The position numbers were made by a program, and so were the translations under genes. The notes under the pieces were generated by a model that was not told the DNA's origin, did no database searches, and saw only the letters and a list, made by a program, of their open reading frames with translations. Positions 44,443 to 62,243 of a stretch of 64,000 nt of DNA are shown piece after piece; positions within the stretch are counted from its first letter, which is position 1, and each line of letters opens with the position of its first letter. The stretch covers positions 22,625,419 through 22,689,418 of the forward strand of contig OY987243.1 in the NCBI GenBank assembly GCA_963920765.1. Reading direction: 5' to 3'. Origin of the DNA: Ulota crispa. Its lineage: Eukaryota; Streptophyta; Bryopsida; Orthotrichales; Orthotrichaceae.

Positions 44443-44510
44443 ACAACTCAAAGTTGATTTGGCTTGTATCATAAGCCATGGTGTAAACACCAACGCTTAG
44501 TTTGATAACC

Positions 44511-44692
44511 AATGATGCTACTGAGAGAGCAGCGAGCGGTGAGCTTGTGAGCTGCGAGCAAGAAAGTCATGAGCGTGGAGTCCAAAGCCTAAGAATTTTG
44601 AGTATAACTGGAAATTTACAATGATGAGTTCAAACATTCATAATATTGAAATAAAAAGGGCTGAAATTAAAAGTGGGGTCCTATTACCGTGG
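44511..44692 (+). repeat. Left terminal inverted repeat region
   Basis: It starts AATGATGCTACTGAGAGAGC, continues in GTGAGC/GCGAGC words to about 44,575 and includes the subterminal word GGTCCTATTACCGTGG. The right end has the same order of parts but ~95 bp fewer between the two blocks, so the match is interrupted rather than continuous. Confidence 0.65.
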
Positions 44693-45359
44693 ATATTATG
44701 CTTCACCCATGATCTTGTTGTTGGAGGGGATTGAGCTGAATGTTTCAGAGGTTTACTAAATCATTCGAGCACATGAAATGGAAATACTAAAACAAAATAG
44801 GTAGTGTTCAGCAAAATGAAGAAGAGGTACAAAATTGGGGGAATTTGATTTACCATGATTTGGTGGTGTACTATAGAGTTTAGGGAAGAGGGAGTTCTGA
44901 TCAAATGAGCAACAGTGAGGGCATACCTCAGGGTACCATTATTTGGTTTCAGAACAAAGAAGAACAAAGTAAAATTTTGGGTTCAAGAGATGTGTGTGTC
45001 ACAACCAACTAACATGTTTTGGGATCTTAGAAAAACAAACAAAAATTGATATAGAAGGATCAAAGGATTTAGGATTTAGGGGAATACATCCATCAGAATT
45101 ACCTTAAGATTATAAGAGGGTAATTTTACACCTTCAAAGAAATGTACAAAGGGAATGCTATGCATATAATACATTAAGTATTGTGGATGTGGGCATAGAC
45201 CAGAATATATTAAGAAGAAAAGTAGTGATAGCATCATTTTCATTGAGTATACATGCATGACAATGACTATAGAAAAGAACATTGGTATGTAACATACGAG
45301 AGGAACATTAATATCAATGCTGATAATCAAAATAGCAATGAACAAAATCACAGTTTTAT

Positions 45360-46766
45360 CTACTCTTTTACTTTTATGATCCCTGCTTGAATGAGGAGGA
45401 TCTTAACCTTAGAGTAGCTAAGGCTAGGGGCATGAATAAAAGTATCTTTCATGAGGTCCATCTTGCAGTGGTAACCAAAAAGGTAATACAGATGTTTGCA
45501 ATTCACATATTGCGATCGACCTCTGATGGCAACAATAGCCATGTTGGTAAAGTTAGGGCAATTGCAGGCAAGAAAATTTCCTATTGTAATTCAATAGATG
45601 TTGCGATGCCCCTTAGATCCTATTTGGAGAGAAACAATTGCTCCAAAGGTAGGTAGTGGCAACATCATTGCTCCCAAAATTGATCCGGATACATTACTTG
45701 CACTTTCCCATTTATTCCTCTTCTCAGAAGTTGGAACATTAGATAGACGTCAAATTGTGGAGTTTTGCCTCTTCTTTGGGTACACATCTGCATTGGGCGG
45801 GTCCACTACATCATATGTGGTGCACTCAAAGGCAGTAGACATGCCAAACAGTTGACGTGGTGACAATGACGGCTGCTTCTGCAAGCGGAAACCTGCATGT
45901 TGTAGTAGCATAGACTCTTCACAAGTAAATTTTGTCCTGGAAAGTACTGGCCAAATTTTGGGAACCGTGGGCTAGTCAATTACTAACTTTTGCTTAGAGC
46001 CTTTGACACAACGTTCAATGTCATCAACACAAAACCAAAAATCTGTTGTGACTTCACAACGTCCATAATCCACTTTCCTCCCATTATATGTTGGAGCAGG
46101 AATACCCTTTGCACCTTCCCCAACTTTTGCAATACATTTCAAACCTATATTGCTCTGTTGAGCGTGACACTTAATGCTGGACTTCGACTTGATTCTAGCA
46201 AAGTGCCATTTTGATGGGTCGCAGTCACTCTCAAAAGGCATAGCAACATAGCCAAAATCAGTAACCTCTGGCAAAGTACTAGGTCCTCTAAGGGTGTCTT
46301 CAAAGCTGGATGAGAATCTTCTTGTCACACGTGGTTCAGAAAAATTCACCTTAATTGGGCGGTGAGATTTCCCCTTGTCACCAACTGGAGTTACCGCTTT
46401 TCTCTTTGTGCTACCAAAAACTTCTTCACCTTCCAAATGGGGAATGCGTGTTCTAAGATCTTTCGCCCCAAGCAATGTATTGAGTGCCTTAGCAATTTTT
46501 TTAGGATTGCCGCTCCGCCTTGCAGCTCTTAGTTTTAACTTGCTTGTTGAAGGACTGGAACCAAAAGCATTTCCACAAAATAGATATGCCCTAAAGTTGG
46601 TCATTTGTTGCCATGCTCGAATGCCGTCGTCACATGTAGCTTCAAAAATATTACCTCCTCGATTTCCAGACATCTGGAGCCACTTGTTGTGAATGGTCTT
46701 TGACAAATTGCAAGTTGGCATATCTGCCAGCTCTTGTAGGTTGAAATTTTGTATATAGCACCACAC
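45360..46766 (-). pseudogene. Transposase C-terminal part with SWIM zinc finger
   Basis: The 264-codon open stretch 45,972–46,766 begins …LQELADMPTCNLSKTIHNKW and ends …FCVDDIERCVKGSKQKLVID before a TAG. In the same frame it continues PTVPKIWPVLS…MLLQHAGF, then after a TGA to QIGSKGH, another TGA, and the SWIM finger. That finger has Cys-x-Cys at 45,558–45,566 (ACNCPNF) and Cys-x-His at 45,492–45,500 (VNCKHLYYL), separated by 20 residues, followed by FIHAPSLSYSKV and the stop. SWIM fingers (CxC…CxH) are a hallmark of MULE transposases. A plus-strand frame at 45,387–45,656 is just its antisense. Confidence 0.8.
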
Positions 46767-46769
46767 ATT

Positions 46770-47460
46770 GAGAGTTATATAAATTTGTAGGAATTATGTT
46801 GAAAATTGATATGGGTAGTCATACCTTTGGTACATCATTCTTGGCAAAATGTTCACTTGCAAAAAACTTCTATGGATTTATTTATATTTCTTTGTGGATA
46901 GTAGTGACTCTAAGAATATCATTCTTGGAAGAATGTTCAAACTAATTTCCTTACAGACCCAAAGCACCTTATGACATCAGTTTTAGGAGTATTTTGAAGT
47001 CATTTTCTTTGCAGACTGTAGGCACCCGTGGACATCATTCTTGGAAGAATGTTCAAGTGCATGACTTTACAGATCTAAGGCACTCCATGAAATGGTTACC
47101 ACAAGATTGCCAATGCTAATTTGTTCGCGGAGGGAACGCATCCGTGGACATCATTATTGGAAGAATGTTCAAATATTAAAACCGTTTGAGAAAGAATTCC
47201 AGTGATTTATGCAATGTATTTTCACGACATTACAACATCGTCAACATCATTCTTGGACAAATGTTTAGAGTGACAAACCAGTCTCTAACATTAACTAAAC
47301 AAAGACCAATTTAAATTGTATACAAGAGTTTCCAATAGAAACTAGATTGCACCAACATGGGTTATTTATACATGTCAAACACTATGTACAATGATGCTGA
47401 AAGACATCAGTGAAGTTGGTACGACCGCGAAACACATACGATTTGTGAAGAGCCTCTCCA
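46770..47460 (-). other. Probable intron of the transposase with minisatellite
   Basis: No continuous frame joins the core (ending …LDFWHFRYKQW near 47,461) to the next exon at 46,766, and the frame changes between them. The interval carries five dispersed copies of a CATTCTTGGAAGAATGTTC word. Exact splice sites were not fixed. Confidence 0.5.
46832..47266. repeat. Five spaced copies of a palindromic 24-bp word
   Basis: ACATCATTCTTGGAAGAATG followed by TTCAA occurs near 46,832, 46,918, 47,030, 47,149 and 47,243 with small changes, so spacing is about 85–120 bp. The core CATTCTTGGAAGAATG is nearly palindromic. The words TGGACATCATT and CTTTGCAGA/CTTTACAGA also recur, so it is a degenerate ~115-bp tandem array. 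Confidence 0.7.
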
Positions 47461-48141
47461 TTGCTTGTAACGAAAGTGCCAGAAGTCTAGCCAATGGTTG
47501 AAGTAAGTCAGAACATCCTCTCATGCAGCTCCCGAGGATAGCCACCATGACCGAATAGCCAAATATTGGGTCTCCGCATCATCCATCGAGTTTGAGTCCT
47601 TATATTGTTTGCACAGTATAATATGTTGTTGCTGGAATGCCTCTTTGATGTACTTGTGCATATGTTTGACCAATGAACTGCACCAGTGGAGAAGGCAAGT
47701 CCATTCTTGGTTCTGCATGACTTCTTTAGGAATTCCAGATTCATAAACAATTCACACAGCTCTCCAATTAGCCATGGCGCTGTTTGCCATGAATCTTTTG
47801 AAGTTCAAACTTTCAACTTCAAACTTTGACATGATGGCATTTAATAATATCCAAAACCAAACCTGTATTTCAATATTCTCTGACTGCATATCACATGTAG
47901 CTATAGTCATCACCTTCTTATACCCGAAATTGTACACATGGCAGGCCATGGTAGTCCAGTCATCTATTCGCTTTACGTGGTCAAACATCATCCAAGAGAA
48001 TTGCAGATCACTTCCTACTTGCATTCTTCAAACTAAATTGACACCACTCCCTAGTCCCTCTGTTAACATTTTGAATAAGTACACTTTCTCTCGACCTTGG
48101 CCCGGAAACACACTATCATGAATAAATTAAAGCTGCGACAA
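47461..48141 (-). pseudogene. Transposase core (MULE DDE-type region)
   Basis: Same frame as the N-terminal part. It reads VFPGQGREKVYLFKMLTEG, then (after a stop) FSWMMFDHVKRIDDWTTMAC, TIATCDMQSENIE, FMANSAMANW, and, after another stop, LLHWCSSLVKHMHKYI with DDAETQYLAIRSWW. These match a MULE core I remember, in which the second acidic residue lies in an F-M-A-D-S motif; here it is Asn, a change one G-to-A transition would explain. The stop between …ANWRAV and IVYESG replaces an expected Arg. The order and spacing leave little doubt about the family; catalytic assignments are inference. Confidence 0.75.
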
Positions 48142-49488
48142 TCATTTCATTGTCATTAACTTGTCAATCACACCTCCTTGGTTATTTGACCTTAACGCCA
48201 AGATAACATTACGTATATTTGGACTATTGAGATCATGGAAGCGGTCCATGAGTTTGTTCCTGCCGTTTGCATCAAGCATAATTTTTTCACCATCACCGTT
48301 GTGGTACAAGTGATTGGCGAGGAACTCATTGCTAGCAGCTAATGCAATGGTCAAAGCTGTTGCTTTAGAAGTTTTAGCTACTTGGGTTGCAATGAGATTG
48401 CGGATTTTGTTCACCGCATCCCTGTATAAACCATTAGCAACAGGGTGATCGTGACTCCCTAAATGAATAGCTGCCCATATCATTCTAACATTTTTGCTGT
48501 ACACGTAATACAATCGTGCATTGCATATTTTGACGCAAATAGGGGCTGTTTTGCAAACCTTGCAGAGTATAGTGCAATCTTTTGGAGGGACATCACCCAC
48601 TCGAAATGCTGATGTTGAGCTACCAGTCCACTCTGTCTCGTTACGATGGCCAGCTCTGGCTACAAACTCACAGCTTGCAATGACACATGCTAAATGACCG
48701 ACACAATTAGTAAACCAAAAAGTCATATTACTATCATTGTGGATATATGTAGTCTTCAGTTTACACCACAAGTGACCATCATATCTTTTCTCCATACCTT
48801 CTAAGTTTTTGGCAGAAGTTGCTGCAGCTCCAAAATGACATGGGGGGAGTTCAAAAATCACGTTGCAATCATAAGATGGGGGCAAATAATCTACACAATG
48901 ATGCTTCAGAACAGAATAGTTAAACAAAGACAGTTCACTTCTATGGCGATGCATACCCGCCAACTTCTTTAAACACTCTACAATACTAAGACGCTTGGTA
49001 TTTGGGTGAAGTGGAGGTCATGAATGGTTTGACGGTGTTCCAATGCTAGATAAAGTAATGGGCTTTGAGGACTCTAAAGCTTCTACAGGATGGATATCCT
49101 CAGATAGTGAAAATTTAGATGGAACGTCATTGCCACTAACCTTGCCCTTGGATTCACTAGACAACTCAAGAATGGAAGGAAGCTTTTCTAATTTGATAGG
49201 TTTAAGAAGGAGGTCTGTTGTGTCAACAAAATCTTCATGTTCAACAGTAGCTAAACGAAGCACAAACAATATGTAGGGCATATCCACGCTAGAACCACTC
49301 GAATTATGACTTGGCTTGTTAGTAGAGATCGAAGCAGTCACCAATGGAACACCATACACCCGAAATGATCTAGCGTATAAGTTCTAGAACTCAAAAGCAC
49401 TCTCTGCGGTTTTCAACATTGGAATGCACTCGAGCAAAACTCCATCAGTTGACCTACTCTCCTCCTCAATGTAAATAGATGCCTCCAT
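48142..49488 (-). pseudogene. Transposase N-terminus: FAR1-like start and zinc-binding region
   Basis: The start resembles FAR1-type modules (AESAFEF, a stop, then NLYARSF). After an acidic Ser-rich linker and a TGA at 49,018 the frame continues through …CHFGAAATSAKNLEGM… into a Cys/His region: FTNCVGHLACVIASCEF, then CKVCKTAPICVKICNARLYY and finally IHLGSHDHPV. The closing C…H-x-H pattern is that of WRKY-GCM1/FLYWCH-type DNA-binding domains found at the front of MULE transposases. A helical segment follows (ATALTIALAASNEFLANHLY). The uninterrupted frame 48,142–48,963 is 273 codons. Confidence 0.75.
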
Positions 49489-52216
49489 GAGACAAAATCG
49501 AACATGCAAGAGGTGATTTGACACTGGCTTTACCAAGAGCATCTAGTGGAAGAACTAGAGGGATCACGTGGCCGTTTGCCCATATCAAAGCCATACTGAT
49601 GAAACAACGCACTACCAAAACAACACGTTAGACATTGGGTCCACTGAACAGTACAAGAGTGAAGTGAATGACAATGAGAGAACTGAAATGTAGACAATAT
49701 TGACATATGTGATAGGGAATGCACCCAACATAGAAGATATCAAAAGCAATAGGACAGGTAGGTTGCGATATTGAGATAGAGTAGGCTCATAATGAAAAAC
49801 GGTTACTAAATCCAAGAAAGCAAGACTTATTTCAAAGATATGCACGCAATGAGTTCAAAAGAGAGTGGCTGGTCGGTATTTATTGCCTTGTCAAGCAAAT
49901 ATTTGAATCACATGGACACCATATCAGTGACAATTACAGGTTTAATGAAAACCGTCGCAACTGTATAGAGAGGAGGCGGAACCCAAATTTGGTAGAGGAA
50001 CGTAAGTTGGTTTTTTGTGGAAGAAAAAAATGTCTGATGATTCTGCAAACTGTAATGATGGTCAGCCACGTCAATAAGAGTGGGTATACTAGGACCAATC
50101 TTGTATTCAAAATCTTGTAATAATGCTTTCATGGTGGCGGTGTAAAAGCAAACGAGAGATATGCAGAGATTGAGAACATCCGAGCAGCTATACTTCTGGA
50201 TCTTGTACACTAGTGTCTTCAAACCCACTATTCCACAATTGAAACTGTAGATACGTTTTCCAGTAGAGGATTTGTAATCTCTCATACTTCAATACAGTGA
50301 ATTTATAAGGAGTTAGAGTTATTGACCACCCATTTGTCAGACATGGTACATTGTATGTAAAAAATTCCCGTCAGTTCAGTACATTAGGTTTGGAAATAAT
50401 AATTCCCGCACTTGTTTCTAGAAGAGATACGTCAGCCCAAATTTTGAATCTATGCATCTCCGTGAAGAGCTAGGAACTTTAGAGTTCTCAAAGTATTTTA
50501 AATTGTCCATTTTAATTTACGCAAGCAATCTTTATAAGAACCTTGTCATTTGTAACAGTATGGTAGCACTAGCGATGGCGTCTTATCCTTGTTGGGCTTA
50601 GAAGGTTCTTTCACTTGAGAAGTTTGATTTTGCAAACAAAATTGCAAAATAGAGCACTAGACCTATCATGAAAGACACAATCTAGAAGGAACCTATTCAA
50701 ACGTCAACTTCAAATGAGACAGAATCTGAAGAGGAGGTATTTCTGTTTTGCATTGATCCGGACACGCCCTTTACCATTCTTAGTTAAGATCATGTGTAAT
50801 TAGTTCTAGTATTGTGGGAATTGTGCCTCTACTATTGGTCATGCCGTAACCCGTAGGATGTTGGCGACAACCACATACTTGTAGGAAACATTCGCAAATC
50901 TGATCTTATAATTAAATTGAGGAGATAAACATTTTGCAAGGATGTTGCCGTAATGGTCATCAGTAACGCATGATGAACTATATGAAATGAAATTGCACAT
51001 TGATTAGCACACCTTTTGCTTTATGAATTCCTAAGATGTTATTGTGGACGCAACAGCAATTGTAACTATACTCCAAGAACTGATGATTAAATAGAAATGA
51101 AAATTGACTCATGAGCAAAGGAAACTAAGAGTGAATGAAATTTACAAATACATGGAGCATGGTTTCACAAATGTTTGAGAATATTGTATAGCCGATTAGT
51201 AATATAGTCTATGATAATGGAAATGCCCTTCAGCGGAACCAAAAAACCAATAATTAAACTCATAAAATCATGAAGTAACTGGCCCTAAACAGAATATATG
51301 GGCACCGACCTGTTGTTGCATTTCATCGCGTTGATGTCAAAACCCTAGATAAACAAGGTTCCATCCAGAAAGTGGATACAAGTCCAAGCCCTCCTGGATG
51401 CATTATGATCATTGGCTATCCCTCGCGATCACGTCACCAGCGTGCATGCAGCATTCCCCTGAAACTGCCGCCGTTTGTAACGCCGCATTTCTCCCGCTTC
51501 CATGTTACTCTCTTCTCCCCTTGCGCTGGTTGCTCCAATGCTGTTCAAGTGTATTGAGCGCCATAGTTAGGTTTGAAAGTCATTTTCAATCAGCGTGACA
51601 CTCTAGAAGTACTGCCGCATTCTCTAGCAACAGGGCTGTCGAGGATGATTGCCGACGGTGGTCGATGATCCAAGGGTTCTTTTGAGGCCGACTATACGCA
51701 AACTCTTCTGGCGCTGTTGTCTCTCCAGAAGCCAGAGGGCGAATCCTTTTGACCTAATTCTTCACTGATTTCTGAATTTTCCTGTAAATATGAGAGGGAG
51801 ACAAATATGTAGGAATGGAGGCACTGCTGCTACGTGTGAGCAGTGCTGTGTCAAGTGATGCAATTTGGAGATTAGTAGAATTGTGTGTCTTACTGTTCTT
51901 AGCTGTGGGCGACTCAACTGCAAGCCAACCTTCGTAGTACCTTCCCATGTATGTAACCATTGCTCTGTGATGGTTGTCTTTTTGGTATCGTGGCTTTTTC
52001 ATTGACCATGTCAAGATCGACCTAGTAAAAAAAATTTTGAGAGGACGTTGAAAGTAAGTCACTTGAAGCTTGAATATCGTGATTCTTGCTATAATGAATT
52101 CCCTTGCTGTACGTCCCTATACTATGCCGGGTTGTCCCAACAATATTACTCAATTGGACAAGGGCTCCTTTGTCCACCCTGTAGAGCCATTAAAATTGTA
52201 CGTTTTCTTTTGCAGG
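49489..52216. promoter_or_regulatory. Central divergent region of the transposon
   Basis: About 2.7 kb between the start of the transposase (minus) and the first supported exon of the methyltransferase gene (plus). By position it should hold promoters and first exons of both. I see an AAACCCTAGA word near 51,342 (telo-box-like, common in plant promoters). An unrecognised 125-codon minus frame lies at 49,908–50,285; it has no domain I know and could be a small third gene, an upstream exon or chance. Confidence 0.4.
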
Positions 52217-53106
52217 TGGACGCAGTGCCCAAAGCAATGACAAGAACAAGAAATTCTTGGAAGACTGCAGTAGTGGATTCTGAATCTGAGAACGATAGGT
52301 TGCAGCAACGGCCGATAGGTCGTAGCAACGGCCGATAAAAGCATTTGTGGACCTAGATGTGCAAGTCTTTGCTTCGGCAATTGACATTCCAAGTGAATGA
52401 GATGACGCCAAAATGCTGCTAGCAAATAAAAGTTGTGAGGTGGATTCTAGCATGCCCTCACCAATTGTAGACAAACATGACATTACTCTCAGCGGGTCCT
52501 ATATTGGTGAGACCAAGAACTCCGTATTTTCATTTGCGTGTTCCATAATGTAGTCGACGGTGTAAAGCATCCAATTTTGCTGAAGCCGAAGAGGTCATTT
52601 TAATTGTTGAGAACATGACATCAGTATTGGACGTTTGTTATTGTAGATGACACTCACGGGGCTTAGCCAAGCCCTGACGGGGATTGAACTTAGCGTTTGG
52701 AGGAGGTGACGTCCATTGGGCTAAGCCAGATTAGAACGGATATATGCACCCCGCCAACAAAGGAGATGACTCAATTTGAATTTGGCAAAGAAGATAATGT
52801 AGAGAGGGTTATGGAGGAGGAGGCCAATGAGGAAGAAGCTAAGCTCCTCAAAAATGACCTGAGGCGCATGCAGAAAGTGGACGCCATTGCAACAATAGCA
52901 AGCCTTTGAATGAAATTAGAGGCTGTGTTTCGGTTTTGAGTGCCATTGATTCGTCTAGTACCAATGCCAATGGTGAGGCCAAATTTATTGAGCAATGTGA
53001 CCAAATTGGAGAATGAATTTGTCCATGGCTATTAGGACGGTTCATCTGTCTTTTACATATCCACAACCAATGAGCTAGGGGAGAGCAGTGAGTTCACGCA
53101 AAGGAA
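52217..53106 (+). pseudogene. N-terminal acidic region of the ParB–methyltransferase gene
   Basis: An acceptor TTTTGCAG precedes 52,217. The first ATG in frame is at 52,237 (MTRTRNSWKTAVVDSESEND). Further fragments in shifting frames look coding: KAFVDLDVQVFASAIDIPSE, EVDSSMPSPIVDKHDITLS, a Glu-rich stretch at 52,790–52,860 (VMEEEANEEEAKLL) and VFYISTTNELGESSEFTQR at 53,045–53,105. Frames change several times, so exon limits are not fixed and decay is advanced here. Confidence 0.45.
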
Positions 53107-53363
53107 ATGTCATCTTGGGGAACATTTTGGAATGCAAAGAACACCACTTTCAAAGAGACCGTTGGTCAGCATCTAGAGCTCTTGTACCTGATGAACCTGA
53201 AGCTCTATGTTTGTGATGGAAATCACAGAAGACTTGCGTGGATGAAACATATCACAATGCATCACCCCCTTGATCCGACGTGGCATATTTCAATTGACGC
53301 AATTGTACTAGAGACAAAGGGACGGAATGAGCTTGTCATGCAGGTTATGCATGACATAAATAA
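53107..53363 (+). pseudogene. Exon with ParB/sulfiredoxin-like DGNHR motif
   Basis: The open frame reads …ETVGQHLELLYLMNLKLYVC, DGNHRRLAWMKHI, then …WHISIDAIVLETKG… and QVMHDINK. The D-G-N-H-R motif followed by a short helix and strand is the signature corner of the ParB/Srx fold (compare the G-x-x-R motif of ParB). The exon ends at a consensus donor, AATAA|GTGAGT. A one-base frameshift near 53,117 separates it from the upstream TQR segment. Confidence 0.65.
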
Positions 53364-53480
53364 GTGAGTAAAAACAAGATTTCCTTTACACGATAACTGC
53401 ATGTACTCTTTTGCTATCTATTGAATGAAGGGGGCTTGCAGTTGCACCAGTAATTTGAAAGTGATTGGTTGAATGATCAG

Positions 53481-53889
53481 GCACACAGAGGACTTGCATG
53501 TGAAGACTAATTTGGTTCACACAATATACCAGGTTCAAAAGTACGGGCTTCTCCCATTGGATAAGTTTTTGGAGATGCTGCGCCCCTCTGAAGTACAAAT
53601 GTGCGCCATAATGGCGATGCAAAAAACTTGGTACTCTACTCTAGCGAAAGTCCTGACATCATTTATATATTGGATAATTCTATTGAACTCTAAACTCATA
53701 AACAAATTATGGATTTTCATCTTCTAAACATATGCATAATCTACTTGATGTAGAAGAAATGCCCCATTACGGCGTAAAGAAACATATCATGAAACCCGAG
53801 ACAACAAGGCTGGAACAGTCATGCAAAGACTTCTTTGATGAAAATTATATTCAAAACCAGCTACTTCTCTCAAACATGGAACGCATAAC
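53481..53889 (+). pseudogene. Exon after the ParB motif
   Basis: It begins after the acceptor GAATGATCAG and joins the previous exon in phase (DIN-K-HTEDLHVKTNLVHT). It reads on through YQVQKYGLLPLDKFLEMLRP to about 53,700. After a frame change the coding-like text MHNLLDVEEMPHYGVKKHI and LEQSCKDFFDENYIQ continues to a TAA at 53,889. The GC-rich minisatellite starts at once after it, so the end of this exon may have been overrun. Confidence 0.6.
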
Positions 53890-55225
53890 TTAAAGAAGTA
53901 GCGCAGATGCACGCGCCACCTAGAGCAGCATCGCCGACGACGCCGCTTCAGGTGGAGCGCGCACTCGCGCCATTTCAAGTATTCTCAGCTACCCCCACCT
54001 CCCATTAGCGGTATCCATTCTCTTGTTGATGAGTGTATCGCTCAAGAGTGGCGCAGATGCGCGCGCCACCTAGAGCAGCGTCATCGCCGACGATGCTCCA
54101 GGTGGCGTGCGCATCTGTACCACCCTTTCTATTTTGAGCTGCCCAAAGACTCCAACATAGGTATGCCTTCCCCGCCTTTTGATTATCATGTCCCAAGGTG
54201 GCGCAGATGCGCGTGCCACCTGGAGCCACATCACACTGACGCAGCTCTAGGTGGCACGCACATCCGCGCCACCCTTTCTATTTTGAGCTGCCCAAAGACT
54301 CCAACATAGGTATGCCTTCCCTGCATTTTGATTCCCCAAGGTGGCGCGGATGCACGCGCCACCTTGGATACCTCAAGCTACCCGCAACCTCCATTAGCGG
54401 TATCCCTTCACTTGTCTATGAGTGTAACGTTCCAAGGAGGCGCGGATGCGCTTGCCACTTGGAACAGCGTCGTCGCCGATGATGCTCTAGGGGGCGCACG
54501 CATCCAAGCCACCTTCAGTACCCCAAGCTACCCACAACTTCCATCAGTGGTATCCCTTCACTTGTCTATGAGTGTATTGCCCAAAGGTGGCACGCTCATC
54601 CGCGCCACCTTTTATACTTTGAGCTGCCCAAAACCTCTAATATATGTATGCCTTCCCCGCCTTTTGATTATCATGCCCCAAGGTAGCGCGGATGTGCGTG
54701 CAACATTTAGTACCCGTAGCTATCCGCAACCTCCATCTTTAATATTCTTTTGCTTGTTTTTGCGTTTATCGCCTCAAAGTGGCGCACATGCGCGTGCGAC
54801 CTTGGATACCCTAAGCTACCCGCAATTTCAATCAATGGTGTCCATTCCTAGGTATCTCAATGTACCGCTCCAAGGTGGCGCGGATGTGCGCGCCACCTGG
54901 AGTAGCATTGTTGCTGGTGCTGCTTGCAGTGGCGAGCGCATCCGCGCCACCTTGGGTACCCCAAACTACTTGCAACCTCCATCATTGATATCCATTCACT
55001 TGTCTATGAGTGTATTGCTCAAAGATCGCGCGCGCATCCGTGCCACCTTTTGTACTTTGAATTATCCGAAGCCTCCAACATAGGTATGCCTTCCCTGCTT
55101 TTTTATTATCATGCCCCACTGTGGCGCGCGCATCTGTGCCACCTTAGATATCCGTAGCTACTCGTAACCTCCATCAATGGTCTCCATTTCCAGTTGTCTG
55201 AGTGTATTGCTCCAAGGCGGCGCTG
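53890..55225. repeat. GC-rich minisatellite in the large intron, part 1
   Basis: The repeat carries GTGGCGCGGATGCGCGCGCC and its inverted form, then (GTACCC)AAGCTACCCGCAACCTCCA and CACTTGTCTATGAGTGTAT. Starts near 53,896, 54,044, 54,195, 54,339, 54,435, 54,583, 54,680, 54,776, 54,872, 55,020, 55,117 and 55,214 give steps of about 97 or 148 bp. The 51-bp difference is an optional block containing TCGTCGCCGACGA that turns the unit into a palindrome. GC content contrasts sharply with the AT-rich surroundings. The 251-codon frame at 54,328–55,083 is a translation of the ~96-bp period, not a gene I recognise. Confidence 0.85.
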
Positions 55226-57340
55226 TTGGATTAAGAGGAGCGCGCTTTAAAAACACACAGGGTATCTTGCTGCGATCATACGTTGCTGGCTAAAATTGTC
55301 TTCGGTTTTTATCTTCAATCTTTAGTCTTCCGTTGGCTTATCTTGTGATTGGCTCTAGGGATATGAAGGTCAAGATAGAGATAAGAGCCCACTAGATACG
55401 GGACGGGTAGATTGGCATAGCAGACACGAGCTGCCGTCCGTATGACAGGATCTTAAATTCAAATTCACGATCTGTTAGCCAAAATTTCAGATTGTGAGAA
55501 CAGAGCAAGTCTCGACCATGTGAGTGATCAATCCCACTTTGTCACTACGACAATAAATGAGATTAAGTTTGGTTTATCTCAAACTACCCGCAACAAAGTC
55601 TACAAAACATAATGGAAATGAATTGACAAACGAGCCTCCAAAATCGGCTAAGAATAACAAAAACACATCCCTTACATACATAAAAAATAAACCCAAAACA
55701 TTTCCCTTGAAATCTTTATATCTTCAGATCTTCAAGTCTTAATGTTTTAATAAAAACAATGGAGAAAATCACAAATAAAAAGCCATAGAAAGGCTGCAAC
55801 TTTCTATCTAGTGCCATAGATGATTCAAAGATCCAATGGCTAAATGTAATAGCAATTTGAAAAATTCTTCTAATTTTCTAAGATCACTTCAAATTTCAAC
55901 TCAATCTAAGCGGTCATCCAAAAGTTATGCGGATTCAAAGTAGAGGCTCTTCTTCCTCTTTGCAAACTAAACACTGTCTCTATAAACCTCTGTAACTTTT
56001 ATTCTACATATTACCCATAGAAATATAATATTAATTTGAAAAGATGATATTATTGGCTATAATATGTATAATTTTTTTTTTAAAATAAAACTTTGTCTAG
56101 AAATTCTAGTCAATCAAAGTGTGGGTCTCAATTTTTTAGAGAGCACCCAAACCTCCAACATCTACACGCTATAACTTCTTCAATAAGACTTCAAATGGAA
56201 TGATTGAAAATAATTTAGAAAGCTGTGACAATAAAATATCATTTTCTAAAAATTTGAGAAGAAAATTTCATACAATCCAAAAGTTGTAGCTTTTCAAAGT
56301 TTTAGCTTTTTCATAACAAAAAGGCAGCCACCTCCAATCTTTCACACTTTCATAACTTTTTCTTCTAAGCTTTAAACCTTGAGTTTAAAGACTTTTTATA
56401 AAACTAAAATTAAAGTGAACACTCTCTCAAAATCTTGTTGCAAAATGATATACAAATCATAAACTATGGCTTGTCAAAGTCTTAATCTTTCTTCATAGTT
56501 TAGTTCATTGACTCCAAAATTCAAATACTCATAACTTTTGCATCACAAGTCCAAATCAAACTTGCAAATTCATTTTGAAAAGGTAATCACACAAGAAAAA
56601 ACTCATCCAAATTTCAATTCCAAATCATGTGTATTTAGAAAGTTCCCTTATATAAAAGTTTAAGGATTTCTTCTCTCTTCCTACCAAAACTCATACACTA
56701 ACTTCCAACATACTAAGGAATCTCTTCTCCTTAATTTTGACCATACCTAAGGTAGGAAAGTGGGACACATCAGCTCATGCCTCTCTTCATCCTAATCTCA
56801 CCATAGATGCCAAACTTTTTTTTTTTTCACACCATTCCTATTCATTTTTAAATCCTTAGTATTTTTTTATTCAAACAAAGGCAAAATATATGAGCCTTCC
56901 AAAACATCTAGATAAACATATAAAAATGATTAAATTACAAAATAAATACCACCATAAAATAGCCACGTGCTTTTACGAGCATATAATAGCGTCAAACGCT
57001 TGTCTTCAGTTGCCAAATCGTAGACTTGGTTGGCTTGAGAAGCGGTCGTCTCTGGTCACTCGCCGGTCCGGGTTCGAACCCCATCAGACTCGCCGAGCGG
57101 TGATGGCGATTCACTGCTTGGCAGCTAGTGAGGCAAGAAATTGGCCCAACCAACCCATTGCCTACCTCCCTGAGCTAAACATGTGACAAGACGACGAAGC
57201 GCATTGGAATCTATGGCCATTGTTCTGTCACCAAACCGTGGTTCTCATCACGACCACCTATTTTGCCTTAACTGTTGATTTATTAAAATAAATAAAAGCA
57301 TAAATAAATAACAAGTATCTATATGATGGAGGGATCTCCA
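55226..57340. other. AT-rich insert splitting the minisatellite
   Basis: About 2.1 kb that interrupts the array: the unit breaks after GGCGGCGCTG at 55,214–55,224 and resumes with TGTGCGCGCCACC at 57,356. The insert is AT-rich, rich in ATAACTTTT-like words, and holds a tRNA-like segment near its right end. I could not identify terminal repeats or a target duplication. Confidence 0.5.
57015..57250 (+). repeat. tRNA-derived (SINE-like) segment
   Basis: A perfect pol III B box, GGTTCGAACCC, lies at 57,071–57,081. About 38 bp upstream is a degenerate A box (TGGCTTGAGAAGCGG). The segment is GC-richer than the surrounding insert. It cannot fold into a full tRNA with normal stem lengths and lacks a plausible 3' end, so I read it as a tRNA-derived SINE head rather than a tRNA gene. 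Confidence 0.5.
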
Positions 57341-57960
57341 TCAAGACAGCTTCGATGTGCGCGCCACCTAGAGTAGCGTCGTCGCCGATGCTGCTGGAAG
57401 TGGCGCACGCATTGGTGCCAATTTGTATACCACAAGCTACCCGCAACTTCTATTAGTGGTCTCCCTTCTCTTATCTATTAGTGTATCAGTCAAAGGTGGC
57501 GCGGATGCTCTTGCCAGCTAGAGTAGCATTGTTGTCGACGTTGCTCCAGGTGGCATGTGCATTTGCGCTACCTTGAGTACCCGTAGCTACACGCAACCTC
57601 TATCATTGGTATCTATTTGCTTGTTTATGAATATTTCGCTCAAAGGTGGCACGCGCAACCACGCTACTTTGGGTATCTCTAGCTATCCGGAACCTCCATC
57701 AGTAATTTCCATTCCTTCATCTATTAGTGTATCGCTCAAAGGTGGCGCGTGCATCTGCACCACCTTGGGTATTGTCAGCTATCCCTGTCCTCCATCAGTG
57801 GCAACTGTTCCTCTATCTTTGATTGTATCACTCAAATGTGGTGTGTGCATGTGCACCACCTTTTGTATTCTCAGCGGCCTTGGACCTCCTTCATTTGAAT
57901 GCTTCCGTTTCTGTTTGATTGAAGTGATCTAAGCCGATGCGGATGCACATGCCACTTAAT
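57341..57960. repeat. GC-rich minisatellite, part 2
   Basis: Continuation of the array beyond the insert. Units start near 57,491, 57,641, 57,737 and 57,833, again at ~150 and ~96 bp. It is more degenerate toward the right (GTGGTGTGTGCATGTGCACC). The block TCGTCGCCGATGC of the long unit is present once near 57,378. Confidence 0.8.
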
Positions 57961-58100
57961 CTAGCGTATTCTTGGGACGCCGATGGATTCTAGTTTTGTT
58001 TTTTTTTAATAGTATTGCCTGCTTGTATCTGAATAATTTAGATTTGTTACTTCATATTAATCGTAGCAATTTCTGATGATTGTCAATATGTTTTTTGCAG

Positions 58101-58295
58101 CAAGAGATATGTGCGGCTATGGAATACGCTTTTGGGAAGTATAATGAGGCAACAGCAAAAGAGGATTAGACTGAAAAAAGTGTTGCTGATGCTATGCATG
58201 CTAGTGCTAAGGCAAAGACCAAGAAGCTTTATGGGAAGATGATGAAGCTTGTGGCTATTGCCCACCATGCTAATGGCAAAGTTTTCCTAGAGCAG
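58101..58295 (+). pseudogene. Methyltransferase-gene exon, helical region
   Basis: Acceptor TTTTTTGCAG, then 65 codons to CAG|GTGTGT. It reads QEICAAMEYAFGKYNEAT, a TAG at ~58,167, then ADAMHASAKAKTKKLYGKMM and AIAHHANGKVFLEQ. One in-frame stop. It joins the next exon in phase. Confidence 0.6.
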
Positions 58296-58378
58296 GTGTG
58301 TATACATGTTATTTTGTTTAGACTTTATGGCATTATAGAAAATTCAAGTGGTTTATTTGATGAGCTTGTTATTTTTAG

Positions 58379-58584
58379 GTAGAGATTCATTATAGCACAA
58401 ATGAAACTCCAAAGATGACATTGGACAAGCTACAAATTGTTGCTACCTGTTATACCACTGCTTTCCATAAGACCAAATTTTTGAAGTGGTGGAACTCATC
58501 ATTGCCCTCACGAAAGGCAAGGCGATTTCCTCCAAGCCCCGTGCCTGATGACCTATTGATGCTTTTTGTGACCAAGTGCGTTTG
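58379..58584 (+). pseudogene. Methyltransferase-gene exon, intact frame
   Basis: Acceptor TATTTTTAG, donor TTTG|GTATGT. The open frame reads VEIHYSTNETPKMTLDKLQI, then HKTKFLKWWNSSLP and VPDDLLMLFVTKC. No stop. Function of this region unknown; probably helical, linking the ParB-like and methyltransferase parts. Confidence 0.65.
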
Positions 58585-58726
58585 GTATGTTGTGGTATGC
58601 TTGAATTCAAACTTGATGCTACTTTTGTGCTGTTGCATGAATTTTGTAGTTTTGATATTATTACATGGTCTTTCTGGTTCAAACATGTCATGCACATAAT
58701 TTGCTTTTGTTTGTATCTGTAATTAG

Positions 58727-58956
58727 CTTGAAGATGGTGTAGCTGCTCACTTTGTTCTGAAGAAGGACAATTTGCATGTGAATATGGCTGGTCCTCAAGA
58801 GCCTGAGATGCTTCAAGAACATATTGAAGGGTGGCGTTGAAAAATCTAGGATCAAGGGTTTTATGGGTACCTCAAAGGCGGTGGGAACTTCAAGAAGGGT
58901 GAAAGTTTTACCAAATTCAATGGATCCAAACAAGTTGTTCAACGGGTCTTGCATTG
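58727..58956 (+). pseudogene. Methyltransferase-gene exon with frameshift
   Basis: It reads LEDGVAAHFVLKKDNLHVN and EMLQEHIEG, then shifts by one base (an extra G near 58,842) into GVEKSRIKGFMGTSKAV and LPNSMDPNKLFNGSCI, ending at a GTAACT donor. Removing one G in the GGG run would restore a single frame, so this is either decay or an assembly error. Confidence 0.55.
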
Positions 58957-59228
58957 GTAACTTTTTCATATTCAGGCCGTTCATTTTGTCTTCTCTGGGC
59001 TGCCGTTCTGAGGTACGGTACCATTGGTACTGCGCCCATGATATTTTTAAATGATTTTTGGATTTATCTTGGTCCATTCCTATATCATTGCATTGGGTAG
59101 GTTTATAGTTATCTTTATAGATTGTTCATTCTCCAGTTGTCATGGAATCTTTGAGTTTTTAGTTCAATTCATTATTGTCCCCTAAACTATCATGGTGAAA
59201 TGTTGTTACTTTGATTTTGTTGTTGAAG

Positions 59229-59956
59229 ATATTTCAAGCTCAAGCTTCTCGCTAAGCAAGCTATTTCACGTGATGACCTACCCCCTTTCCTGTCTTCCTG
59301 GCAAGATAGTAGTTCCTCCAAATATATGTTTATAGCTACTCAGTACCAAAACTTCACCACAGCACATTTGGCTAGTAATTGGTTGGTATTTGGACCGTGG
59401 TGTTGAATTCATGCACCCTTCAGAATTGCAATTGCGTAAATCGCTTGAAGAGGTTGGGGCGGTGGACTTAGATAGTAGTGAGTTTAAGGGGTTGGATAAT
59501 GCGGCAAGAGCCAAAGCTATAGAGAAGAGGGCAAAACTAGATTCAAAGAAGGAGCTAAAACATGCCAGCATTGTTGTCCATAAGGCTGCCAAAGAGGCTA
59601 AGAAAATCAAGAAAGCCAAAGAAAAGGCTGCTGAAAAAGAGAAGGGACATAAACCAAGAAGCAAGGCTGCAAAGGTGGCGGTCCCGATCGCGCCTGATCT
59701 AGCTGCGGTTCCGGTGGCGGGTACCTCCAACGTAAAAATCCGGTCTTAGAGCAGTTTGAAGAAGAAAAGTGTCGCCATTGATTTGACTGATGAGGCAGAG
59801 ATTCTTCTTGGAGGTTCAGACATCATTGTTGTTGACGACATTTTTGATGTTGTCATGGATGACATGATCATCAATGCCTCTATTTCTGATGTTGTGGAAG
59901 AGATGGATTGTGAGGGCCCAAATAGTTACACCAAAATTTTGCAGTTCTTACCGAAG
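59229..59956 (+). pseudogene. Exon with Lys/Ala-rich basic region and acidic stretch
   Basis: The frame YFKLKLLAKQAISRDDLPPF … FTTAHLASNW shifts one base near 59,382 into LDRGVEFMHPSELQLRK. It then enters a strongly charged Lys/Ala helix at 59,490–59,690 (KEAKKIKKAKEKAAEKEK), a likely nuclear-localisation and coiled-coil segment. A second shift near 59,745 leads to an acidic stretch (DLTDEAEILL, VVDDIFDVVMDDMI) that ends at CCGAAG|GTGATA. Confidence 0.6.
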
Positions 59957-60089
59957 GTGATAATTTCCCCCCTTTATTGTTTGCTTTTAATAGCATCTGC
60001 AACTAGTCATAGCTCGCAATTACTCTAATCTTCCTATTAATGTTTAGAAGAATGATATTGTTAATTATAATCATGGGATGATGTTGCAG

Positions 60090-60404
60090 GTTGCCAAAGG
60101 CAAGGATCAGTTCTACGAGGGGAAGGTGGACACGGATGTTCTTGTCGACCTTGTACTTGTTGATTGCCCGAAGAACCTAACTGTTCCTGGGATCTCTGCA
60201 CCGGCAATAGATATACCCTTCTGGAATTTGGACAAGGAGTTTGACCTAATGAACGCTACTTTTGCCTTTGTTGAAAAGCTCCTCCATGACAATGGTGCTG
60301 TTATAATGGTGCACTCCTACAGCAAAACCTCTAATGCTTGCATTGCTGGCATGGTTATCTTCCCCGACATGACGACAACTCGACAAACTCGATGTCACAA
60401 ATAG
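60090..60404 (+). pseudogene. Exon with motif IV-like DCPK
   Basis: Acceptor GATGTTGCAG. The open frame reads VDTDVLVDLVLVDCPKNLTV, FWNLDKEFDLMNATFAFVEK, LLHDNGAVIMVHSY. The strand–D-x-P-(Y/K) corner followed by W-x-x-D, a helix and G-x-x-x-x-hydrophobic strand is the arrangement around motif IV of N6/N4 DNA methyltransferases, where D-P-P-Y binds the target base. Here the motif is D-C-P-K. After ~60,365 the text (ATGACGACAACTCGACAAAC) no longer looks like the family. Confidence 0.6.
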
Positions 60405-60905
60405 ACAAGAGACCCTCCGTCCGTTTAGTAAAGCCAACTTTAAAGTTGATTTTTAAATAAAGCATTTTCTATTTCTAATCTTGACATATTAATGTTTCAT
60501 TTTATTAAAGTATCTCAATTTTATATACACTTATTAAAATCTACAATTTGGATCATATTTAAAGTAGATTGAAATAATTATCTCAGCTTTTAAAAAGGGC
60601 CTTATTAGACAAAATCATCACTCATACTTGACACTTGTCATGTGCAACATCAGACGTCAAACAAACAACACGACAACCAAACCCCAAAACATGTCCGACA
60701 AGACAACTCTGATTGCTGGGCTGTGCAAAACACCTGGGATGACCTTGCAAAAGAAATGGGAAACGATGAATCACTTGCACTTGACTTCAGCTCTTGATAC
60801 ATCCTCCACTATGATTTTTATATGCTTCGTTTTTTTGTTATGGTCACTAACCTTCATGCACTTGCTGTTTATTGATGGGAGGTTTTGAATTCTTTTTGGT
60901 TGCAG
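60405..60905 (+). other. Intron or inserted AT-rich DNA
   Basis: Between the motif IV exon and the next supported exon. AT-rich at 60,420–60,610. The 86-codon frame at 60,628–60,888 is unrecognised. The exon expected here by comparison with other methyltransferases (target-recognition part) seems damaged or replaced. Confidence 0.4.
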
Positions 60906-61179
60906 ACCCAAAAGTTTGGTGTTTCTTTATTGGTAAAAGATCTTGGTGAAGACAAATTCTCGGCTTTCTCCTTCAATTTGACAGTGTTGATGGAGAAGAT
61001 GGGTGTTGCTGTCGAAGATGATCACATGCCAACTAATTTTGTTGGCAAAAATCACTTGACGCTTAATGTGAACACCCCTTGAAGGGGCCCTAGAGAGAAA
61101 GGCGCTCTCTTTTATCAGCTTCTTATAGAAGCTGGTTCAGCTATTGGAGATGTTGTTGTGGACTGCATTGCCTCAACTG
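60906..61179 (+). pseudogene. Exon leading to motif I
   Basis: Acceptor TTGCAG. It reads TQKFGVSLLVKDLGEDKFSA … TLNVNTP, a TGA at 61,079–61,081, then RGPREKGALFYQLLIEAGSA and VVVDCIASTG. The stop sits where Arg is likely (CGA to TGA). The segment R-x-x-R-E-K … L-I-E … G-D-V-V-V-D corresponds to the conserved approach to motif I (P-x-x-L-I … G-D-x-V-L-D-P-F). Donor CTG|GTAAGT. Confidence 0.65.
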
Positions 61180-61270
61180 GTAAGTTTCCTTGCTATATCA
61201 TACTTGATTATTCTATTTGAATGAAGCTCCTTATCTTTTTTAGAGTCATCATTGGATTTCATTTCTGCAG

Positions 61271-61476
61271 GTGCGTCCATCAAAGCCTGCCATGCAAGTG
61301 GACGCAATATTCTAGCATTAGAGGCGGGCGGCGCTATTTTCAAGGGTGTTTTAAAACCTATGATTTGCCCTGCACCTGCTCCCACTAATGTTCCTGCTCA
61401 AATGGAAGTAACTCCTGCATCATTGACATCTCAGGACCCAGAGGCCGGTCCTATTATTGCCATGGAGTTTCAATGA
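61271..61476 (+). pseudogene. Exon completing motif I and C-terminal part
   Basis: Acceptor TTTCTGCAG. In phase with the previous exon it gives STG-ASIKACHASGRNILALEA, GGAIFKGVLKPM, then a Pro-rich tail to TGA. The pattern G-A-S-x-x-A-C-x-x-x-G-R-x-x-x-x-x-E matches motif I and its following helix and strand (G-T-x-x-x-A-x-x-x-x-R-x-x-x-G-x-E) in N6/N4 methyltransferases. Confidence 0.7.
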
Positions 61477-61579
61477 AAGACTAGAGTTTGTAAGTAAGTT
61501 CAATTCTTAAATTCCTACCTTACTTGCTTAACATGCACAAGTGTATTAGCCTAACACTTTCGGCGTCCTTTTTATTCAG

Positions 61580-61847
61580 CCAAGCAAGGATGAAGAGGAA
61601 GAAGAAGTCTTTGGGCAAGTCCAACTCGCCTGCATGGATTAGTCTGGATGAGACTATCTTCTACCTAGATTATGCACAGAAAATGGGCAATGCATATGCG
61701 GTTTATGGTGTTAAGAAGCCTTTATTGTTTGCTCCTAAGCACTCTAGTGGCGTCTTAGAGTTCATGGATGTGATGGTAGCGGTAGGATAAGGATCATCTG
61801 TGGACCCTTCTGATATTACTTCTGACGATGAGAGTAGTCAGGGTTAG
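61580..61847 (+). pseudogene. Possible last exon
   Basis: An acceptor CTTTTTATTCAG follows a GTAAGTAAG donor-like site near 61,491. Two frames look coding in turn: PSKDEEEEEVFGQVQLACMD, and WISLDETIFYLDYAQKMG … FAPKHSSGVLEFMDVMVA then (after TAA) GSSVDPSDITSDDESSQG to TAG at 61,845–61,847. It is acidic at both ends. The frame switch suggests an indel. Confidence 0.45.
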
Positions 61848-61968
61848 CATTTTTGTACTCATGCGCTTTGGGTACATTATCATTTTTTGTATCGGTTTAT
61901 ATATGTCATGTATTTTTGCTTGGATTTGTTTGATTTCACCCATCTCCAGCAAACTTATTTTGATCATC

Positions 61969-62155
61969 CCTAAACCCTTTTTTATTAATAGTGTGTTTCT
62001 TTACTGACTACGTCTCTTCACCCTAAGCCGACCACTGCAAATCCCTAAACCCTAAACCATCTTTGCAATTTACACCCTAAATTAGCTCCGTCTTGACCAC
62101 CATGCTTCTACGGTGATAGGTGTGCGGCTTATCTTGGTCACCCTAAACCCATGGT
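61969..62155. repeat. Cluster of CCCTAAA telomere-like motifs
   Basis: CCCTAAACCC occurs near 61,973, 62,043 (two full plant-type units, CCCTAAACCCTAAACC) and 62,141, with CACCCTAAAT near 62,075. It lies just inside the right end of the large transposon. Possible telo-box regulatory cluster or captured sequence. Confidence 0.5.
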
Positions 62156-62230
62156 AATAGGACCTCCCTATAAATTTTAAGGTCCAAAACTAACTGCTCA
62201 CAGGCTCACATGCTCACCTCCTAGCAACCC
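62149..62230 (-). repeat. Right terminal inverted repeat region
   Basis: On the minus strand it starts GGGTTGCTAGGAGGTGAGCA, continues in GTGAGC words and reaches GGTCCTATTACCATGG. It matches the left end in order of parts. Directly outside is the 13-bp duplicate at 62,231–62,243. Confidence 0.65.
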
Positions 62231-62243
62231 TAGTTTGATAACC

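Follow-up and report, generated by a model that had tools for sequence, protein, structure and literature searches.

What use does a large DNA transposon have for a gene that resembles a DNA methyltransferase? The question is raised by a 64,000-nucleotide stretch of the Ulota crispa genome (Bryopsida), hereafter the window, which spans C2:22,625,419-22,689,418 (contig OY987243.1) of assembly GCA_963920765.1 (274.8 Mb, 157 contigs). Here a transposase gene and a second gene with 'ParB-like' and methyltransferase-like parts are arranged divergently between two related ends, and relatives of both genes and both ends were sought across the whole assembly. The account we prefer, with a probability of roughly 60%, is that this is an old, inactive two-gene transposon whose second protein would have been a non-catalytic DNA-binding partner and not a methylating enzyme.

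That the interval 44,510-62,232 is one DNA transposon is supported by matches to its ends elsewhere in the genome, by the pairing of those ends and by their target duplications, and not by its flanking direct repeat alone. The first-pass annotation had bracketed the element with a 13-base duplication, TAGTTTGATAACC. This repeat is indeed present at 44498-44510 and 62231-62243; the 13-mer has 7 exact sites in the genome versus 22 for a reversed control pattern, and by itself is weak evidence. Alignment of family termini sets the target duplication at 10 bp, GTTTGATAAC, and the 13-bp version was dropped, its remaining three bases being element ends or a chance match. Searches with the left end (293 bp) and the right end (254 bp) each returned 40 scored matches, among 45 and 42 candidates, respectively. 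Many left and right matches pair in the same orientation, 1.3-20 kb apart, far beyond chance.

Using 20 fetched stretches and the end matches of the searches, duplications were scored in 32 stretches (34 minus 2 duplicates), 24 of which contain both ends. With the 10-bp frame fixed, 13 of these 24 copies match at 10/10 positions and five at 9/10 (18/24 at 9-10/10). The other six score 7, 6, 4, 3, 2 and 1, some of them reflecting 9-bp duplications or misplaced ends; copy E4 (3/10) was wrongly cut and was scored as a miss. When left flanks were compared with the right flanks of other copies, 0/552 swapped pairs reached 7 and the maximum was 6/10. Other copies with the same ends, which had been suggested as a check on the initial proposal, are thus present, and the element belongs to a multicopy family. 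Its ends are inverted versions of one another, as first described, in an imperfect form: the terminal inverted repeat is weak, matching at 12 of its first 24 consensus positions, GTGAGC words number 10.6 per kb over the outermost 200 bp at either end versus 0.2 per kb inside, and the inverted subterminal word GGTCCTATTACC is found with at most two mismatches at the left end of 23 copies, the right end of 18 and both ends of 17.

In a blastn map of the family, both transposase halves are retained by the window copy, E11 and X6 (clipped at the edge of its fetched stretch). The window copy and E11 also carry the methyltransferase region, which for X6 is located beyond its stretch. Copies E1-E10 (L028-L038; 6.8-10.4 kb) are without the transposase core and share one common junction that removes the methyltransferase core, so this subfamily spread as a non-autonomous line. 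Two further copies of ~7 kb, X2 and X3, have different deletions, and the short members measure 1.3-1.5 kb. Judged by its reading frames, E11 (L039-L041) also contains a nested Ty3/gypsy-like retrotransposon.

The association between the two genes was followed through relatives of the transposase core, for which 150 sites were scored among 187 candidates. First typed were 101 of these, comprising 44 loci of group A (≥57% identity) and 57 of group B (below that value, a cut set by eye); the two groups are roughly 50% identical. Among the 49 untyped matches, 17 lie near a typed locus and the rest merge to 26 weaker group-B loci, which were included in the pairing with methyltransferase exons and not in that with 'ParB-like' exons. 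At 81 of the 101 typed loci a 'ParB-like' exon lies within 20 kb in divergent orientation (group A, 33/44; group B, 48/57; median distance ~4.8 kb), with two convergent cases and one on the same strand. Random placement in 200 runs gave a mean of 0.5 such pairings and a maximum of 3.

The methyltransferase exons distinguish the two groups. With the group-A query, divergent matches lie within 40 kb of 36/44 group-A transposases and of 1/57 typed group-B loci. Within 20 kb, A-type exons accompany 34/44 group-A loci and B-type exons 30/57 group-B loci (median 9.2 kb). Pairing at 13 of the 26 weaker loci, all B-type and none A-type, brings the count to 77 of 127 transposase loci with a methyltransferase of either type. 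The lack of cross-type pairing arises partly because each locus was given, by hand, the type of whichever query scored better. On the side of the second gene, 108 ParB-like loci were drawn from part of the matches listed, mostly last-exon matches being omitted; A-type methyltransferase loci number at least 56 among the matches listed (113 of 426 candidates scored); and B-type loci number 59, the omitted matches being further exons of the same locus or loci scoring higher with the group-A query. A listed transposase is missing beside 27/108 ParB-like, 20/56 A-type and 18/59 B-type loci, which may be decayed copies or have partners below the scoring limits. Constant pairing of the two genes had been posed as a question by the first-pass annotation; the association is general without being invariable, and is strongly supported. 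Since each transposase group is accompanied by a distinct version of the second gene, the gene pair predates the divergence of the groups and was then kept as a stable unit.

A compact two-gene kind was also seen: at about 10 of the 13 weaker loci that are paired, no more than 1.3-1.9 kb separates the transposase from its divergent methyltransferase-like exon (for example, C2:6135838-6138154, C5:8400381-8402711 and C11:3903134-3905320).

The second gene reads rightward over ~52,690-61,850 in about 10 exons, in the order VCDGNHRRLAW-motif exons, exons of unassigned fold, a lysine-rich exon and the methyltransferase-like domain; in the window copy it is broken, with 2 stops in the methyltransferase exons. 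The initial assignment of the last domain is supported. PF01555 (N6_N4_Mtase) matches 5/14 copies at E≤0.1 (best 2.8e-4), PHROG 6952 (DNA methyltransferase) matches 11/14 (best 1.9e-6), and a profile match in the PDB to DpnA (5hek; E=0.0011) sets DPPYN of DpnA opposite DCPEN. The beta-class motif order IV, X, I is retained in these sequence profiles, weakly for the motif IV part, and a beta-class (N6/N4) DNA-methyltransferase-like fold is accordingly the supported prediction. The first half of the gene is less clear. A motif of the DG-x-H-R type is a sign of ParB, and CDGNH, kept in 4/4 aligned copies including a distant one, resembles it. This resemblance is what survives of the original ParB label: PF02195 (ParB) matches nothing in the Ulota crispa genome at E≤10, the same profile finding matches in 11/14 control genomes, and searches of Pfam, PHROGs and the PDB with the 'ParB-like' part gave no ParB hit.

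A protein search with a 1,042-amino-acid composite of the second gene returned no match. The search with second-gene alignment A1 found one metagenome protein, P0001 (E=2.2e-21), and therefore the second gene exists outside the Ulota crispa genome. P0001, encoded on a 1,371-bp contig, shares the second-gene domain and seems to have been translated through an intron. Viral contigs yielded 18 pattern matches, none confirmed, and the 260 records of a phage tblastn search, all below 60% identity with listed E values of 0.04-0.1, are not counted as evidence.

Motif I of such enzymes is canonically D-P-F-x-G-x-G-T, and motif IV is D/S/N-P-P-Y/F/W. Support for the latter as the catalytic form comes from work on bdelloid N4CMT (PMC8885841). 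We read motif IV in 20 group-A copies, picked for few stops and for spread from at least 56 A-type loci, and in three group-B copies. In group A, D is kept in 19/19 and followed by C in 19/20 (one stop), then by P, L, Q or S in 12, 5, 2 and 1 copies, E or K at position 4 in 12 and 8, and N and L in 20/20 each; the group-B copies read DMPENL, DVPKGL and DILEGL. All 23 copies have E or K at position 4, and none has Y, F or W. Because the P-to-L and E-to-K changes match expected C-to-T decay, D-C-P-E-N-L (D-x-P-E-N-L) is the likely ancestral form. Motif I has the consensus D-C-T-A-S-T-G-A-S, its first Gly being Ser in 18/21 group-A copies and Gly in none. DpnA, alike in fold and motif order, thus differs at both sites (DPPYN versus DxPEN; DPFMGSGTT versus DCTASTGAS).

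Judged from ratios of nonsynonymous to synonymous change, the methyltransferase-like region evolved under purifying selection: over 207 pairs pN/pS ranges from 0.30 to 0.81 with a median of 0.44, and dN/dS, in pairs where it is computable, has a median of 0.23. A motif IV altered at position 4 while dN/dS stays near 0.23 argues for a changed or non-catalytic role of the second gene over self-marking with N6-methyladenine or N4-methylcytosine. Self-marking had been proposed in the first-pass annotation and is disfavoured because the aromatic residue of motif IV is absent from every copy read. A fuller account, to which we give a little less than even odds, is that large DNA transposons of the Ulota crispa genome long used a pseudo-methyltransferase with a prokaryote-type amino-methyltransferase fold, selected as a DNA-binding partner in transposition or anti-silencing and not as a writer of marks. 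The aromatic residue would then have been exchanged, probably for glutamate, before the transposase groups parted, each version being inherited with its own group.

Such an element would move by cut and paste. Its second protein may recognise the element's own non-coding repeats, and would either aid transposase assembly at the ends or keep the element from silencing, a role like that of VANC in VANDAL elements. A methyltransferase fold is not known in VANC. Tandem repeats within non-coding parts of its own VANDAL family contain the short motifs to which VANC binds, and it counters silencing (PMC10398659); it is likewise an accessory protein beside the transposase of a Mutator-like element (MULE) (PMC10398659, PMC5735166). 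Possible counterparts in the Ulota crispa family are its subterminal words and the units of an internal array, present in 9/18 stretches, some clipped (the window copy, E2, E3, E4, E5, E6, E7, E10 and E11).

We favour a DNA-binding partner because of this analogy with VANC proteins and because motif IV is a poor fit for an enzyme. The second protein could instead be an active N6-adenine/N4-cytosine methyltransferase that marks its own element, D-x-P-E-N-L being a tolerated variant. The retained order of motifs, the Asp and Asn of motif IV in group A (with Pro in 12/20), the purifying selection and the self-marking proposed for a similar gene (PMC12477816) are all compatible with an enzyme, which we nonetheless find unlikely given the missing aromatic residue, the loss of the first Gly of motif I and the report that an SPPY-to-APPA change abolished bdelloid N4CMT activity (PMC8885841). 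Less probable still is that the second gene is passenger DNA, captured once and spread with the element while doing nothing for it. MULEs do carry captured gene pieces (PMC6446971), and members of ~1.3-1.5 kb and 6.7-10.4 kb multiplied after losing the methyltransferase core; a short member may be mobilised in trans, however, and a functionless passenger sits poorly with the low dN/dS and with retention alongside two transposase groups so far apart in sequence.

The nature of the transposase is a separate matter. Its D-D-E and C-x2-H spacing looks MULE-like by eye. By duplication length it is MULE-like, and membership of Mutator is suggested because the 10-bp duplication is joined by a SWIM-like CxC...CxH motif; MULE duplications span 8-11 bp, and MULEs without terminal inverted repeats exist (PMC6446971). 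The finger is weak: the Pfam SWIM profile scores E=0.06 on copy E11, below the cut-off, and the pattern is found in 4/18 stretches (E11, X3, X6 and partly X2), missing the window copy. The MULE profile PF10551 has 71 matches listed genome-wide, none at these transposase loci, and no match in the transposase copies or in three metagenome relatives; a transposase profile found no match in the PDB. Fourteen metagenome proteins match a group-B transposase core. The Mutator assignment of the first-pass annotation therefore keeps its duplication length and a weak finger and lacks its profile. Blindness of the Pfam profile to this transposase and the weak inverted repeats would also suit another D-D-E superfamily with long duplications, an alternative that we regard as doubtful in view of the duplication length, the finger and the catalytic spacing.

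Several observations weigh against our preferred account of a non-catalytic partner in an old MULE-like element. Motif IV was read in decayed, hand-picked copies; one or more stops interrupt the domain in 20/21 A-type copies and the remaining copy is partial, so that no working source copy stands among the 21 read. Distant pairs approach saturation at synonymous sites. Only 2.7 bits of the DpnA alignment come from the DPPYN/DCPEN part, the motif X-I part supplying the significance, and an exon-by-exon search of the whole genome with PF01555 gave 4 weak matches, none at these loci. Neither the ParB label nor MULE membership is confirmed by a profile, the structure predicted for the transposase relative P0003 from 12 sequences has a confidence score (pLDDT) of 44, and 16/101 typed transposase loci have neither a ParB-like nor a methyltransferase exon listed.

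Within the window copy (Table 1), the two divergent genes reading toward the ends are as first described; the interval holds more than these two genes, namely a nested insert, a repeat and an array. The insert within the motif IV exon has similar inverted ends, and may be a small non-autonomous element of the hAT type. The array units are GC-rich and palindrome-like, occupy 53900-55240 and 57340-57950, and are found nowhere within window positions 1-44000. Between them lies a 2.1-kb repeat (~55,234-57,349) that interrupts the array and has 79% identity to a stretch in copy E6 (L034).

Table 1. Features of the transposon copy in the Ulota crispa window (window coordinates)
Feature	Position	Strand	Basis
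Left target-site duplication GTTTGATAAC, 10 bp	44500..44509		family boundary alignment, swapped-pair control
Whole element, 17,723 bp counting nested inserts	44510..62232		family boundary alignment, genome copies
Left terminus, family consensus CAACGACGCTACCGGGGGAGCGGC, imperfect inverted repeat	44510..44533	+	family boundary alignment
Subterminal word GGTCCTATTACC	44677..44688	+	window sequence, 24-copy comparison
Transposase gene, broken, reads toward left end	45360..49400	-	window frames, genome relatives
SWIM-like CxC...CxH motif, by eye	45485..45570	-	window sequence
Transposase C-terminal coding part	45972..46766	-	reading frames
Transposase core, D-D-E-like by eye, 4 TGA + 1 TAA in frame (count disregards introns)	47452..48195 (C2:22672870-22673613)	-	genome relatives
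Transposase N-terminal coding part	48142..49384	-	relatives P0003, P0005
'ParB-like' exons, motif VCDGNHRRLAW at ~53,215, broken	52688..53670	+	copy comparison
Degenerate tandem array, GC-rich units, split by 2.1-kb repeat	53900..57950		window sequence
Three exons, fold unassigned	58095..58957	+	copy comparison
Lysine-rich linker exon	59239..59956	+	copy comparison
Methyltransferase motif IV exon, first half; D-C-P-K-N-L at 60,162-60,179	60090..60349	+	copies, profile matches
Nested insert, 362 bp, 8-bp duplication ATTGCTGG, inside motif IV exon	60350..60711		window sequence
Motif IV exon, second half	60712..60813	+	copy comparison
Motif X / motif I exon, one in-frame stop	60906..61181	+	copy comparison
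Exon after motif I	61270..61485	+	copy comparison
Second-gene C-terminal exon	61602..61848	+	copy comparison
Inverted subterminal word (GGTAATAGGACC on + strand)	62153..62164	-	window sequence, 24-copy comparison
Right terminus, imperfect inverted repeat of left terminus	62209..62232	-	family boundary alignment
Right target-site duplication GTTTGATAAC, 10 bp	62233..62242		family boundary alignment, swapped-pair control

The first-pass annotation knew of no gene of this type in a MULE. Genes of the kind are already published: ParB-plus-methyltransferase accessory genes are described in an Ectocarpus Sola1 transposon and in algal transposons (PMC12477816). The Ectocarpus case is also a giant DNA transposon, in which a gene of 1,104 amino acids, opposite the transposase, combines ParB-like and N4/N6 methyltransferase parts; the Ulota crispa composite of 1,042 amino acids agrees in layout and length, its ParB part by motif only. 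As described, the two differ in that the Ectocarpus element belongs to Sola-1, whereas the Ulota crispa family has 10-bp duplications, an altered motif IV and more than 100 transposase loci; these loci fall into two groups that go with different versions of the second gene. Other transposons also bear DNA methyltransferases, as in retrotransposons of Symbiodinium and charophytes, where the enzyme is by contrast a C5-cytosine type, shown able to methylate CG (PMC5890265). Bdelloid N4CMT is another permuted (beta) bacterial amino-methyltransferase in a eukaryote, but has a canonical SPPY and demonstrated activity, and is not described as a transposon gene in the available text (PMC8885841). In a literature search made mostly without subscription papers, no report was found of such genes in MULE-like elements or of a motif IV change in them.

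It has been proposed that the accessory proteins encoded by ParB-plus-methyltransferase genes of transposons mark the element that carries them (PMC12477816). New here are a like layout joined to a different transposase, at ~80 loci and in two co-inherited versions, and a catalytic motif seemingly ill suited to methylation in a protein that was nevertheless under selection. The self-marking idea thereby becomes testable, and the Ulota crispa family suggests that the methyltransferase fold may have a second role in the conflict of transposons with silencing by the host.

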